Assembly: GCA_938074565.1 (NCBI GenBank)
Contig: CALJEQ010000030.1
Span: forward strand, 1 to 64,000
DNA: 64,000 bases
Source: an uncultured Alkaliphilus sp.
GTDB taxonomy: Bacteria; Bacillota; Clostridia; Peptostreptococcales; Natronincolaceae
Direction: 5' to 3'
Shown here: positions 31,435 to 57,287 of the stretch, piece by piece
Layout of the letters: every line of letters starts with the position of its first letter
How positions within the stretch are numbered: position 1 is the first letter of the stretch
The notes under the pieces: generated by a model
The model's input: only the letters and a program-made list of their open reading frames with translations
What the model was told of the DNA's origin: nothing
The model's database searches: none
Made by a program: the position numbers and the translations under genes

Positions 31435-32136
31435 ATGAAAAAATATGGTATTATTGGAGCTATGGATGAAGAAATAGAAATACTTAAGTCAGAAATGGAA
31501 ATCACAGAAACTAAGAAAATTGCCAACATGGAGTTTTATGTAGGTACATTAGAAAATCAACAGATAATTTTGGTAAGATGTGGTATAGGAAAAGTAAATG
31601 CCGCTGTTTGTACACAAATTTTAATTAGTCAATTAGGAGCAACTTCTATTATCAATACAGGTGTTGCAGGGGCAATCCATGATGATTTAAATGTATTGGA
31701 CGTAGTTATTTCAACAGATGTTCAACAACATGATTTTGATGTGACAGGGTTTGGTTATCCTATTGGTGAAATTCCACGAATGGACAAATCTATTTTTCCA
31801 GCCGATGAACTATTGGTTAAATTAGCAAATGAAGGTGCTAGTGAAATCTTGGAAAATAGCAAGGTTTTAATGGGTAGAATTGTTACTGGAGACGTATTCG
31901 TTAGTAGCAGTGAATTAAAGGAAAAAATATGGGGTATTTTTAAAGGTTACTGTACAGAAATGGAAGGCGCTGCCATCGGGCAAGCGTGTTATGTAAATGA
32001 TGTACCATTTGTTATAATTAGAGCTATGTCAGATAAAGCTGATGGCTCAGCCCATGAAAACTTTAATGAATTTATGCATCAAGCTGCTATTAATTCAAAA
32101 GAAATTGTAAAATATATTTTAAGACAAATGAACTAA
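31435..32136 (+). CDS. mtnN: 5'-methylthioadenosine/S-adenosylhomocysteine nucleosidase
   Basis: MtnN cleaves adenine from methylthioadenosine and S-adenosylhomocysteine, releasing methylthioribose or S-ribosylhomocysteine. The 233 residues have E12 in GAMDEEIE, the VNAAVCTQILI and GVAGAI motifs, GDVFVSS, EMEGAAIGQ and SDKADGSA with the catalytic Asp. GGAGGG precedes the ATG. aroF follows after 29 bases. Its product methylthioribose is relevant to the RuBisCO-like gene at 56025. Confidence 0.96.
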   Translation: MKKYGIIGAMDEEIEILKSEMEITETKKIANMEFYVGTLENQQIILVRCGIGKVNAAVCTQILISQLGATSIINTGVAGAIHDDLNVLDVVISTDVQQHDFDVTGFGYPIGEIPRMDKSIFPADELLVKLANEGASEILENSKVLMGRIVTGDVFVSSSELKEKIWGIFKGYCTEMEGAAIGQACYVNDVPFVIIRAMSDKADGSAHENFNEFMHQAAINSKEIVKYILRQMN

Positions 32137-54039: not shown

Positions 54040-54978
54040 ATGGAAAAATTAAAAGTAAATAGAGACGAAATTCCATGGCAACAGGTTTATGATGCTGCTG
54101 AAGGCATTAGACATCGTGTGATGGAACATACAATAAAAAACAATGGGGGTTATCTAAGTCAGGCTTGCTCTTCAGCAGAAATATTTGCAGCCCTTTATTT
54201 AAAAATACTTAACTTGGAAGCCGTTGAAAATCCCATCCTTCCTGGCAAATTTCAAGGAGTACCAGGGCATAATAATCCAAATCATATTACTGGCGCTAAC
54301 TTTCATGGTAAAAAAGCTCCACAATATGATCGTTTTTTTCTATCACCAACCCATTATTCCTTAGTTTTATATACTGCTCTTATTGAAGCAGGTCGTTTGG
54401 ACCCCAGTGGGTTACAAGAATTTAATAAAGATGGTGGAGTTGTGGAAATGATAGGAGCAGACCATTCTCCTGGAATGGAAATAATGACAGGCTCCCTTGG
54501 ACAAGGAATTAGTCAAGCAGCGGGGATTGCTTTAGGCAGAAAACTAAAGAAAGAAACAGGTAGAGTAGTGGTGTTTTTATCCGATGGTGAATGTCAATCA
54601 GGTCAATTTTGGGAAGCAGTTCAAGCCATGTCCCACCATAAACTTGATAATATGTTGGCTTATATAGATATTAATGGCTACCAGTGTGATGGAAAAACCG
54701 AAACAGTAATGACCATTGAGCCTTTAGATAAACGTTTAGAATCCTTTGGAGCTAGGGTTTTTAGAGTGGATGGGCATAATGTAGAAGAGTTAGTTGCATT
54801 AGGAAACGTGCAACCTGATGGAAGACCCACCTTCATACTTTGTGATACTGACCCGTGTAAGAATATGGATATACTGAAACAACGTATTCCAAAACTTCAT
54901 TATGTAAGATTTAACAATGAAGAAGAACGTAATCAGTACAGAGAAGTCTATGAAAAATTAAAACAAGGGTTGAAATAA
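54040..54978 (+). CDS. Transketolase, N-terminal (thiamine-diphosphate-binding) subunit
   Basis: A 312-residue N half of a split transketolase, which moves two-carbon ketol units between sugars. Visible: GADHSPGMEIMTGSLGQGIS, the thiamine-diphosphate loop VFLSDGECQSGQFWEAVQAM and YIDINGYQCDG. A region around residues 65-120 (NPILPGKFQGVPGHNNPNHI) is longer than in common N-halves (about 275 residues). The C half follows after 13 bases. The substrate is likely not the central pathway one, given the RuBisCO-like gene in the operon. ATG 54040 with GGAGTG is preferred over a GTG three codons earlier. Confidence 0.88.
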   Translation: MEKLKVNRDEIPWQQVYDAAEGIRHRVMEHTIKNNGGYLSQACSSAEIFAALYLKILNLEAVENPILPGKFQGVPGHNNPNHITGANFHGKKAPQYDRFFLSPTHYSLVLYTALIEAGRLDPSGLQEFNKDGGVVEMIGADHSPGMEIMTGSLGQGISQAAGIALGRKLKKETGRVVVFLSDGECQSGQFWEAVQAMSHHKLDNMLAYIDINGYQCDGKTETVMTIEPLDKRLESFGARVFRVDGHNVEELVALGNVQPDGRPTFILCDTDPCKNMDILKQRIPKLHYVRFNNEEERNQYREVYEKLKQGLK

Positions 54979-54991
54979 GGAGGGGAGCCAA

Positions 54992-55999
54992 ATGGAGATA
55001 CTAACTAAAGTACATGCAAAAAACCTAGTAAAGTGGGCAGAAGATAAACCAGAAGTTTTGGTGCTTTCAGCAGATTTAACAGGATCAACAGAAGTGGATA
55101 GTTTTAGAGATACATATCCAGATCGTTTTTATTCAATGGGAATAGCCGAACAAAACATGATGAGCTTTGCAGGAGGTCTTGCAAGGGAAGGTTTTAAACC
55201 ATTTATTCATACCTTTGCAGTATTTATATATAGAAGAGCCTACGACCAAATTGCAATGTCTATAGCCTATCCAAATCTTCCAGTAACAATGTTTGGTTTT
55301 TTACCAGGGATTATGACACCAGGAGGGGCTACCCATCAGGCAATTGAAGACATTTCTATAATGAGGTCTTTGCCAAATATGACTATACTAGAGTGTGGAG
55401 ATGCCACCGACGTAGAATCTGTCTTAGATGTGGCAAACTCTGTTAATGGACCTGTATATATAAGAATGTTAAGGGGAGAGATACCAAGACTTTTCCCAGC
55501 TACAGAGGCGATGGAACTTGGTAAGTCAAGGTTAATTACCGAAGGAAGTGATCTTGTTCTTTTAACCAGTGGAATATGTACAGAAGAGGCATTAAGGGCC
55601 ACTGAAGTATTAAAAGCAAGAGGTTTATCTATACACCATAGACATATTACAACCTTAAAACCCTTTAATGATGGGGCAGTTATTGATGCAATTGAAAAGA
55701 CAAAATATGGTGTCATAACTATGGAAAATCATTCGGTTATCGGTGGTTTAGGTACTATTGTTGCAGAAAAAATAGCAGAAAAGGGTATCGGTAAAAAGCT
55801 AGTTAAAATAGGTATTCAAGATACCTTCGTCCACGGGGCTAGTAAGCAGTTTCTAATGAAGGAATACAGTTTAGATGCTATGACATTAATCAGTGAAATA
55901 GAAAAACTGGTTGGACTTGAATTAAATATAAAAGAAGATGATTTAACAGAACCCTATGTGGTAGAAGTTCATAGTAAAGCAAAGGTTGAAGCCCTTTAA
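54992..55999 (+). CDS. Transketolase, C-terminal subunit
   Basis: A 335-residue C half with the pyrimidine-binding and C-terminal domains. Motifs are VLSADLTGSTEVDSFRDTYP, FYSMGIAEQNMMSFAGGLAREG with the conserved Glu, GGATHQAIEDISIMRSLPNM, YIRMLRGEIP, and ITMENHSVIGGLG. It works with the upstream N subunit. AGGAGG precedes the ATG. The RuBisCO-like gene starts 25 bases later, so the three form one operon. Confidence 0.9.
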   Translation: MEILTKVHAKNLVKWAEDKPEVLVLSADLTGSTEVDSFRDTYPDRFYSMGIAEQNMMSFAGGLAREGFKPFIHTFAVFIYRRAYDQIAMSIAYPNLPVTMFGFLPGIMTPGGATHQAIEDISIMRSLPNMTILECGDATDVESVLDVANSVNGPVYIRMLRGEIPRLFPATEAMELGKSRLITEGSDLVLLTSGICTEEALRATEVLKARGLSIHHRHITTLKPFNDGAVIDAIEKTKYGVITMENHSVIGGLGTIVAEKIAEKGIGKKLVKIGIQDTFVHGASKQFLMKEYSLDAMTLISEIEKLVGLELNIKEDDLTEPYVVEVHSKAKVEAL

Positions 56000-56024
56000 T
56001 AACATATTGAGAGGAGCGTAAATA

Positions 56025-57176
56025 ATGTTTTTTACAGGTAATAGTAAATTGAATGTACCCTGCGAGAGATTTAATGTAGTCTATAGGGTTTTTGGAAATG
56101 AAAATGATGCATATGCTAAGGCAAAGGATATATGCTTAGAACAAACGGTGGAATTTCCTGGAGAGCTAGTACCTAAAGGGGTTATAGCAGACCATATTGT
56201 AGGAAAGATTGAAGCCTTTGAGGCTTATAATGATGATAGTTACAAGGTTGTAATTAGCTATGCAGTGGATTGTGGAGCTGACGAATTGACTCAGCTTTTA
56301 AATGTAATTTTCGGTAATATAAGCATAAAGCCTGGTATTAGAGTTGAGGAACTAGAGCTTTCAGAAGGAATATTAAAGAATTTTAAAGGACCGCGTTTTG
56401 GTAAAGAGGGATTAAGAAAATATTTAGGTGTGGAAAAACGTTCGTTATTATTTACTGCATTAAAACCAATGGGGCTTACTAATGAGGAACTTGCTGAATT
56501 AGCCTATAAGTTTGCTGTGGGTGGAATTGATATAATAAAAGACGATCATGGATTATCAAATCAAAAATTTTCTCCCTACGAGGAAAGAGTAAGACTCTGT
56601 TCGGCTGCTGTAGAAAAGGCTAATAAAGAAACGGGAAATAAGAGTATTTATGTACCTAATATTACAGCACCCTATAGAGAAGTGATGCAGAGGGCTAAAA
56701 TGGCAAAGGAATTAGGTGCAGGAGGGCTTTTGATAGCCCCTGGTTTAACTGGTTTAGATGCAATGAGGGAAGTTGCAGAGGATGATACTATTGCTCTTCC
56801 TATTTTCAGCCATCCAGCTTTTCAGGGAAGTTACGTTTTAGGAAAAAATGGAATTTCACATCAAGTGTTGTTTGGACAAATCCCAAGATTAGCAGGAGCA
56901 GATGCTACTATATATCCAAACTTTGGAGGACGCTTTTCCTTTAGTATAGAGGAATGTAGAAGGATAGCAGAGTCTAGTAATTCACCAATGGGACAATTAA
57001 AATCTATTTTTCCTTGCCCAGCAGGGGGAATGAGCCTTGAAAGTATACCAGAATCCCTAAAGGTATATGGTAATGATGTAATCTTTTTAGTTGGTGGAGG
57101 TCTTTTTAGACAAGGACCTGACATAATTGAAAATAGTAAATATTTTAAAGGATTAGTTGAAGCAACCATCAAATAA
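56025..57176 (+). CDS. RuBisCO-like protein (form IV, non-carboxylating)
   Basis: A 383-residue RuBisCO superfamily protein. The carbamate lysine is K172 in GGIDIIKDDHGLSNQ; the usual KDDE glutamate is His175. K147 lies in TALKPMGL. Phosphate-binding parts PAGGMS (332-337) and VGGGLF (356-361) remain, but the loop-6 lysine region is changed to YPNFGGRF (297-304). This argues for an enolase, isomerase or decarboxylase on a sugar phosphate, not CO2 fixation. Known form IV roles include methylthioribulose-1-phosphate chemistry and D-apionate/isoapionate breakdown; neither is settled here. GAGGAG precedes the ATG. Confidence 0.9.
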   Translation: MFFTGNSKLNVPCERFNVVYRVFGNENDAYAKAKDICLEQTVEFPGELVPKGVIADHIVGKIEAFEAYNDDSYKVVISYAVDCGADELTQLLNVIFGNISIKPGIRVEELELSEGILKNFKGPRFGKEGLRKYLGVEKRSLLFTALKPMGLTNEELAELAYKFAVGGIDIIKDDHGLSNQKFSPYEERVRLCSAAVEKANKETGNKSIYVPNITAPYREVMQRAKMAKELGAGGLLIAPGLTGLDAMREVAEDDTIALPIFSHPAFQGSYVLGKNGISHQVLFGQIPRLAGADATIYPNFGGRFSFSIEECRRIAESSNSPMGQLKSIFPCPAGGMSLESIPESLKVYGNDVIFLVGGGLFRQGPDIIENSKYFKGLVEATIK

Positions 57177-57250: not shown

Positions 57251-57287
57251 AACGTCAATCGCTTAATTTTGGTTGACGTTTTTTTTG
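57251..57287 (+). terminator. Terminator of the transketolase/RuBisCO-like operon
   Basis: AACGTCAA/TTGACGTT stem with a T8 tail, 74 bases past the stop. Confidence 0.87.

Follow-up and report, generated by a model that had tools for sequence, protein, structure and literature searches.

The window analyzed here, a 64,000-nucleotide stretch of DNA from an uncultured Alkaliphilus sp., carries three tightly spaced genes on its forward strand. TKN (54040..54978, + strand, 312 aa; Pfam Transketolase_N) encodes the ThDP-binding N-terminal half of a divergent split transketolase, and in the ORF reading its ATG start at 54040 has an AGGAG upstream. TKC (54992..55999, + strand, 335 aa; Pfam Transket_pyr and Transketolase_C) encodes the C-terminal half of that enzyme, with the pyrimidine-binding and C domains. 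The third gene (56025..57176, + strand, 383 aa; Pfam RuBisCO_large) encodes a RuBisCO-like protein (RLP) of the DeepYkr-type clade, and a terminator-like hairpin with a T run, detected by pattern scan only, lies at the 3' end (57251..57280, + strand). Open reading frames, Pfam domains and AlphaFold2 models agree with the original prediction that two transketolase halves and an RLP are adjacent; all three are genuine genes and constitute one unit. As also predicted, no kinase or transporter gene adjoins them in the window; relatives, however, have such neighbours. Neither the unit nor the adjoining ORFs contain a cupin methylsulfurylase gene, and Rfam searches around the operon, both in the window and at 16 loci, gave no SAM riboswitch match. 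The mtnN gene proposed at 31435 (31435..32136, + strand), unlinked to the operon, encodes an MTA/SAH nucleosidase scoring 261 bits with NCBIfam NF004079 against a cut-off of 169.

The RLP has KDDH in place of KDDE at residues 172–175 and lacks the loop-6 lysine, both as first read from the sequence; the loop-6 position is occupied by Arg-303, which is invariant in the RLP family. Its best match in the PDB is 3qfw, an R. palustris RLP that we take to be RLP1/RPA2169, the other R. palustris RLP, RLP2, being 2qyg. Since 3qfw also carries KDDH, this motif is rejected as a sign of a new reaction. Of the 60 residues invariant in the family, alignment finds 53 in 3qfw, KDDH among them, and 36 in MtnW. 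A phylogeny, suggested as a check of the original prediction, places the RLP in one clade with 3qfw (SH-aLRT 100), separate from MtnW. In a careful tree, a Terrarubrum RLP with an adjoining cupin gene pairs with 3qfw (100/100), next to transketolase-linked alphaproteobacterial RLPs (97/80), and 3qfw is nested within the transketolase-linked RLPs. Transketolase-linked and cupin-linked RLPs are distinguished by a single alignment column. With MtnW, the 2,3-diketo-5-methylthiopentyl-1-phosphate enolase, the RLP has in common the RubisCO superfamily and methionine salvage, but it differs in having KDDH rather than KDDE. Identity with MtnW and universal aerobic methionine salvage are rejected, because the RLP lies below the MtnW cut-offs (230 versus 409 and 175 versus 514) in a different clade and because no PF03079 match, indicating an acireductone dioxygenase (MtnD), is present in the genome, which is 91% complete. 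The original prediction had set against itself an MtnW-clade protein with a full standard salvage set and an unlinked transketolase; instead, the RLP is not MtnW, the dioxygenase is missing and the transketolase is tightly linked. The clade, as assigned by sequence comparison, is that of the R. palustris and R. rubrum methylthioribulose-1-phosphate 1,3-isomerase and not that of MtnW or OiaX, and so the predicted methylthioribulose-1-P 1,3-isomerase activity of the RLP is well supported by homology. This activity is proven for R. palustris RLP1 and the R. rubrum RLP (PMC5893883, PMC4958253).

The AlphaFold2 models of TKC and TKN resemble 6yaj and 6yak, with 37–38% and 32% identity in structural alignments, respectively. 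The family shares the two-subunit fold and the ThDP catalytic core with this split transketolase of Carboxydothermus hydrogenoformans (6yaj/6yak) but replaces His-26, His-100, His-461 and Asp-469 (E. coli numbering) and has a conserved insert in the N half. The core residues Glu-411, Asp-155 and Asn-185 are retained family-wide, and TKC keeps E53 (E411), H115 (H473) and R161 (R520). The substrate set H26, H100, H461 and D469 is changed to Y, M, L and G in every family member with the respective half (59 N halves and 73 C halves); the family-specific residues are Y38 (H26) and M137 (H100) in TKN, and TKC is altered at L104 (H461), P110 (E468) and G111 (D469). His-100, which contacts the C1-OH, is Met in 59/59 family members and His in 18/18 ordinary split transketolases, which also keep His-26 in 18/18 and mostly keep Asp-469 (17/22). 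The enlarged N-half insert of the original prediction corresponds to about 27–28 residues at about 64–93 that are conserved in the family and that none of the ordinary split transketolases in the comparison has. TKC scores 185 bits against DXS, and neither half reaches an NCBIfam equivalog cut-off. The aligned residues thus indicate that the active site of the transketolase is remodelled.

The association between the transketolase and the RLP is beyond chance, because it is kept across many phyla. At 67 genome loci the DNA extends far enough upstream to show the preceding gene, and at 48 of these TKC lies directly 5' of the RLP gene. Among 391 Clostridia genomes, the transketolase family is present in 6, all among the 7 with the RLP (Fisher 1.5e-12), and the module occurs in many phyla of bacteria as well as in at least one archaeon. 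MtnA is found in 50/51 RLP genomes versus 118/391 background genomes. In relatives, mtnK-mtnA lies immediately 5' of the unit, the order mtnK-mtnA-TKN-TKC-RLP being found in Anaerosolibacter, C. ljungdahlii, C. drakei, Lokiarchaeota, Ensifer, Agrobacterium, Shinella, Mariluticola and Pararhizobium, and sugar (ribose-type) or nucleoside transporters recur. S-oxide reductase, OAH-sulfhydrylase-type and MTA-phosphorylase-type genes are located near RLPs of the clade: an MTA-type phosphorylase gene lies 3' of the RLP gene in one locus (L058), and a Ponticoccus neighbourhood contains a nucleoside-type transporter, a PNP, an MTA/SAH-deaminase-like protein, mtnA and an S/N-oxide reductase. Several clusters have aldolase/SDR genes, a separate class II aldolase being frequent. 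Phage carriage of the RLP was looked for and none was found. Split transketolases and RLPs also occur in apiose/apionate pathways, and from this parallel the original prediction had drawn one of its options, branched-sugar degradation. Such a route, with an RLP like OiaX and a transketolase like AptAB, is very improbable: the RLP reaches only 77.6 bits with OiaX, where the cut-off is 700, and belongs to the clade of 3qfw. The genes that recur nearby are mtnK, mtnA and those of nucleoside or ribose-type transporters, and the neighbourhoods read held no recognisable branched-sugar genes.

The MTA-isoprenoid shunt of Rhodospirillum rubrum and Rhodopseudomonas palustris consists of MtnP, MtnA, the DeepYkr RLP Rru_A1998/RPA2169 and the cupin methylsulfurylase Rru_A2000/RPA2170 (PMC5893883, PMC4958253). 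In other members of the RLP clade, a cupin takes the place of the transketolase, and the tree shows this exchange three or more times. The RLP-linked cupin matches 3jzv, which is Rru_A2000 (E = 1.6e-24), and is a relative of the methylthioxylulose-5-phosphate methylsulfurylase of R. rubrum. The family transketolase is found nowhere in the cupin-linked genomes, and a genome-wide scan of relatives shows that 35 of 37 transketolase genomes lack the cupin and two have both; several genomes (MAGs) have neither. After correction for phylogeny, the exclusivity test retains 3 independent pairs, too few for significance. The RLP clade, the mtnK-mtnA neighbours and the cupin swap together suggest that the substrate of the transketolase is most likely methylthioxylulose-5-phosphate. 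Alternatively, the true substrate could be 5-deoxyribose from 5'-deoxyadenosine, which MtnK, MtnA and the RLP would convert to 1-deoxyxylulose-5-phosphate, to be cleaved or used by a transketolase with a DXS-like C half. The hosts, rich in anaerobes, and the 185 bits of TKC to DXS are in line with this, as is the handling of both sugars by MtnK and MtnA of the DHAP shunt (PMC10986504, PMC12632272). However, the alternative partner, the cupin, has a methylthio sugar as its substrate in the pathway that has been proven (PMC5893883), the sulfur-related genes named above lie near RLPs of the clade, and the separate class II aldolase could serve that sugar, making a 5-deoxyribose route improbable.

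The genome of the window also encodes, elsewhere than in the RLP operon, MtnK (511 bits) and MtnA (C50:2811-3797; 452.8 bits versus a cut-off of 279), for which a genome search had been proposed, in an aldolase-mtnK-mtnA cluster with a class II aldolase, as well as an O-acetylhomoserine sulfhydrylase (C29:24186-25436; 681 bits versus a cut-off of 495). The second option of the original prediction, recycling of methylthioribose through methylthioribulose and xylulose phosphates, is thus the one that stands, being strongly supported by the clade, by mtnK-mtnA in the operons of relatives and by the cupin swap, and the apiose/apionate option falls. We give a probability of roughly 0.6 to the reading of the operon as the lower half of an O2-independent 5-methylthioadenosine/5-methylthioribose salvage, in which the transketolase would cleave methylthioxylulose-5-phosphate with loss of methanethiol. 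MtnN would produce free 5-methylthioribose, MtnK and MtnA would convert it to 5-methylthioribulose-1-phosphate, and the RLP would shift the carbonyl by 1,3-isomerisation to produce 1-methylthioxylulose-5-phosphate. The split transketolase would then stand in for the cupin methylsulfurylase of the R. rubrum pathway: attack of thiamin diphosphate at C2 and C2–C3 cleavage would release glyceraldehyde-3-phosphate, and the remaining C2 enamine would eject methanethiol to yield acetyl phosphate or acetate. O-acetylhomoserine sulfhydrylase would convert methanethiol to methionine. This transketolase chemistry, with the C–S elimination and its products, is inferred. In phosphoketolase and sulfoacetaldehyde acetyltransferase (Xsc), acetyl-ThDP forms as the ThDP enamine expels a C2 leaving group; the elimination proposed here is alike, but the sequence is of the split-transketolase/DXS branch.

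The proposed route and the MTA-isoprenoid shunt have in common MtnA and a same-clade RLP leading to methylthioxylulose-5-phosphate, independence of O2, and conversion of methanethiol to methionine by O-acetylhomoserine sulfhydrylase (PMC5893883, PMC4958253). They differ in that a split thiamin enzyme, which would yield GAP and a C2 unit, replaces the cupin, which yields DXP, and in that entry is usually through MtnN/MtnK rather than MtnP. The DHAP shunt (MtnK, MtnA and class II aldolase) has the same entry enzymes, but its aldolase splits methylthioribulose-1-P directly, without an RLP or a thiamin enzyme. The transketolase could instead be a true two-carbon transferase that passes the methylthio-C2 unit of methylthioxylulose-5-phosphate on to an aldose phosphate or sets it free as 2-(methylthio)acetaldehyde, the C–S bond being cut elsewhere. 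The retained catalytic core (E411, H473, R520, D155 and N185) would suit such a reaction, and the aldolase/SDR genes of several clusters could handle aldehydes. This alternative is nevertheless unlikely, though less so than 5-deoxyribose as the substrate: the acceptor contact Asp-469 is lost, an aldehyde product would duplicate the class II aldolase of the genome's own DHAP shunt, and the alternation of a sulfur-releasing cupin with the transketolase beside the RLP would be left unexplained.

If methanethiol elimination is extended to the whole family, this undescribed two-subunit thiamin enzyme, present in many phyla of bacteria and in an Asgard archaeon, would be a transketolase-fold C–S lyase that forms glyceraldehyde-3-phosphate, acetyl phosphate (or acetate) and methanethiol from 1-methylthioxylulose-5-phosphate, and, as the usual partner of the RLP clade, it would complete an O2- and reductant-free methionine salvage. 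This wider proposal is tentative, its chances being somewhat short of even. In the open-licence literature, no report was found that ties a transketolase to a methylthio-sugar, MTA, methanethiol or an RLP. The Vibrio nigripulchritudo version has the same transketolase signature, with an FGGY kinase in place of mtnK/mtnA, and its RLP has KEDD where others have KDDH. Because this version shares it, the signature is no strict marker of methylthio sugars, and H100M is weakened as proof of a methylthio substrate. H26Y, H461L and D469G lie at contacts to the sugar-phosphate half, and a methylthioxylulose-5-phosphate donor alone leaves them unexplained.

To our knowledge, the means by which anaerobes reclaim the sulfur of methylthioadenosine without an O2-dependent dioxygenase are only partly known. 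If the proposed route is true, the commonest partner of the RLP clade found here is a thiamin enzyme and not the studied cupin, the route gives energy as acetyl phosphate and needs no reductant, and a whole family of generically annotated 'transketolases' gains a function. The operon is found on rhizobial plasmids and in model acetogens such as Clostridium ljungdahlii, and its presence in the latter makes the route directly testable.

The N- and C-terminal halves of a divergent split transketolase (TKN and TKC; together TK) and a RuBisCO-like protein (RLP) form a real and widespread module, probably a transketolase variant of the MTA-isoprenoid shunt and undescribed as far as the open-licence literature searched shows. 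The original prediction had offered methylthioribose recycling alongside apiose/apionate-type degradation, and we put the probability that the module serves methylthio(deoxy)ribose salvage at about 0.85. In the window, open reading frames for TKN (54040–54978), TKC (54992–55999) and RLP (56025–57176) lie on the plus strand with gaps of 13 and 25 nt. The ATG at 54040 is preceded by a ribosome-binding-site-like AGGAG, and a terminator-like hairpin at 57251–57280 is seen by pattern scan only. Pfam and AlphaFold2/Foldseek concur with the predicted split into two transketolase halves, and alignment bears out the enlarged insert in the N half. In the RLP, the KDDH motif (residues 172–175) and the lack of the loop-6 lysine were borne out as read from the sequence, the residue at the lysine position being R303. 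Judged by RLP (80% identity) and TKC (86%), the nearest relative of this genome (3.68 Mb, 91% complete) is Anaerosolibacter.

The locus sample comprised 80 loci on genome contigs with RLPs 51–80% identical, 67 of which have at least 2.1 kb of upstream DNA. TKC lies directly 5' of RLP in 48 of these 67, with TKN present too in 47, and the TKC–RLP junction is mostly a 1- or 4-nt overlap or abutting. Module loci occur in Bacillota, Chloroflexota, Nitrospirota, Spirochaetota, Elusimicrobiota, Acidobacteriota, Calditrichota, Myxococcota, Pseudomonadota, Planctomycetota, FCPU426 and one Lokiarchaeote, and the module is plasmid-borne in Ensifer, Rhizobium, Agrobacterium, Shinella, Pararhizobium, Mariluticola, Ponticoccus and Vibrio. 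Six further RLP loci, five in Planctomycetaceae and one in a spirochaete, have no linked TK, but their genomes encode a family TKC elsewhere. Of 391 evenly sampled Clostridia genomes, 7 encode RLP (54% identity or more) and 6 encode family TKC, all 6 among those 7 (Fisher, 1.5e-12). MtnA, the family transketolase and the cupin described below were not found in the genome of one clostridial locus (L008) with a same-clade RLP (54%); many loci are MAGs, where gene absences carry little weight.

Model scores for MtnW, RubisCO and OiaX all fall below cut-offs for the RLP. Its closest solved structure is the R. palustris RLP (3qfw), and in a first tree the two fall in one clade (support 100) that excludes both MtnW and the bona fide RubisCO-type sequences. 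A second, careful tree joins 3qfw to a Terrarubrum RLP adjoined by a cupin gene (100/100) and places the two as sister (97/80) to transketolase-linked alphaproteobacterial RLPs. From methylthioribulose-1-phosphate, R. palustris RLP1 and its R. rubrum counterpart form methylthioxylulose-5-phosphate and methylthioribulose-5-phosphate at 3:1 (PMC5893883). Because of the shared clade, this proven activity and the 53 of 60 family invariants identical in 3qfw, there are good grounds for predicting by homology that the RLP is a methylthioribulose-1-phosphate isomerase.

At six RLP loci, the place of TK is taken by a homologue of the cupin Rru_A2000 (3jzv), the R. rubrum methylthioxylulose-5-phosphate methylsulfurylase (PMC4958253); family TKC is absent genome-wide from these six genomes, the best matches being ordinary enzymes at 30–40%. 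In a seventh case (L050) the cupin is unlinked to RLP, and the cupin is also present in 2 of the 37 TK genomes scanned. The 2x2 table of cupin versus TK gives a Fisher p = 8e-4, not corrected for phylogeny; correction leaves 3 independent pairs (starred branches), too few to reach significance. Cupin linkage changes at least 3 times over well-supported branches of the RLP tree, and 5 times on the best tree. The cupin replaces TK, the change has occurred repeatedly and just one alignment column tells cupin-linked from TK-linked RLPs; this is most simply explained if cupin and TK act on one common RLP product.

A single operon mtnK-mtnA-TKN-TKC-RLP is found in A. carboniphilus, Anaerosolibacter sp., C. 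ljungdahlii, C. drakei, the Lokiarchaeote and rhizobial plasmids, and in Acetivibrio mtnA is placed between TKN and TKC. Representative operon kinases and isomerases pass the MtnK and MtnA model cut-offs, and 50 of 51 RLP genomes encode MtnA versus 118 of 391 Clostridia genomes. A sugar ABC transporter is added to the operon in C. ljungdahlii and rhizobia, and at one locus (L058) an MTA/methylthioinosine-type phosphorylase lies immediately 3' of RLP. On a Ponticoccus alexandrii plasmid (L166:3458–13161), the module runs together with a BMP-type (nucleoside-type) transporter, a purine nucleoside phosphorylase, mtnA, a BisC/TorA-type S/N-oxide reductase and an amidohydrolase whose scores on MTA/SAH deaminase and 5'-deoxyadenosine deaminase models stay under the cut-offs. 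This cluster looks suited to importing and using 5'-methylthio nucleosides, whether sulfoxidised or intact.

The mtnN gene noted within the window was confirmed, and the suggested genome search found one MtnK and one MtnA, encoded on another contig (C50) 3' of a class II aldolase, in a cluster of the DHAP-shunt type (L105:847–3836). They are distant from the relatives' operon-borne pair (41% identity for MtnK, 55% for MtnA). With both this cluster and the RLP–transketolase operon, the genome possibly has two outlets for methylthioribulose-1-phosphate. It also encodes O-acetylhomoserine sulfhydrylase; acireductone dioxygenase was not found in the search of this 91% complete genome.

The TK family retains the catalytic core residues E411, H473, R520, D155 and N185 (E. 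coli numbering), and the alignment has H26Y, H100M, H461L, E468P and D469G in all members compared; H26 and H100 are kept by 18/18 ordinary split enzymes. In transketolases, H100 touches the donor C1 hydroxyl, D469 and H26 the C3/C4 hydroxyls, and H461 the phosphate. Met at the H100 position suits a donor bearing a non-polar C1 substituent. With H26, H461 and D469 changed as well, the remainder of the sugar must be gripped differently, which a methylthio donor alone does not explain. Methylthioxylulose-5-phosphate is the likely substrate predicted for TK. Its cleavage at C2–C3 would leave CH3S-CH2-C(OH)=ThDP on the cofactor, and expulsion of the thiolate would then give acetyl-ThDP. Phosphoketolase expels hydroxide, and Xsc sulfite, in the same manner. 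The cupin step consumes glutathione (PMC5893883), whereas the proposed elimination would need no thiol reductant; the case for elimination is a chemical argument and not evidence. For the predicted release of methanethiol by elimination, the odds are at best even.

A conjugative plasmid of Vibrio nigripulchritudo (L169:9944–14563) carries TKN-TKC-RLP with an FGGY-family kinase gene next in line and neither mtnK nor mtnA. Its TK signature is unchanged, showing that this signature can occur outside the mtnK/mtnA context, and its RLP metal motif is KEDD. This version may carry out the same reactions with another sugar. At L039:2257–7494, genes for MtaA-like methyltransferases, a corrinoid-type protein and a reductive activase lie directly 5' of TKN-TKC-RLP and resemble the mlp gene clusters, for which a role in methionine salvage has been proposed (PMC10418091). 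Several module clusters carry aldolase/SDR or LsrF-type genes; in Chloroflexota (L064:3626–11107, also L093 and L073), an LsrF-type thiolase, a class II aldolase, an SDR and an extra MtnA-like protein adjoin the module.
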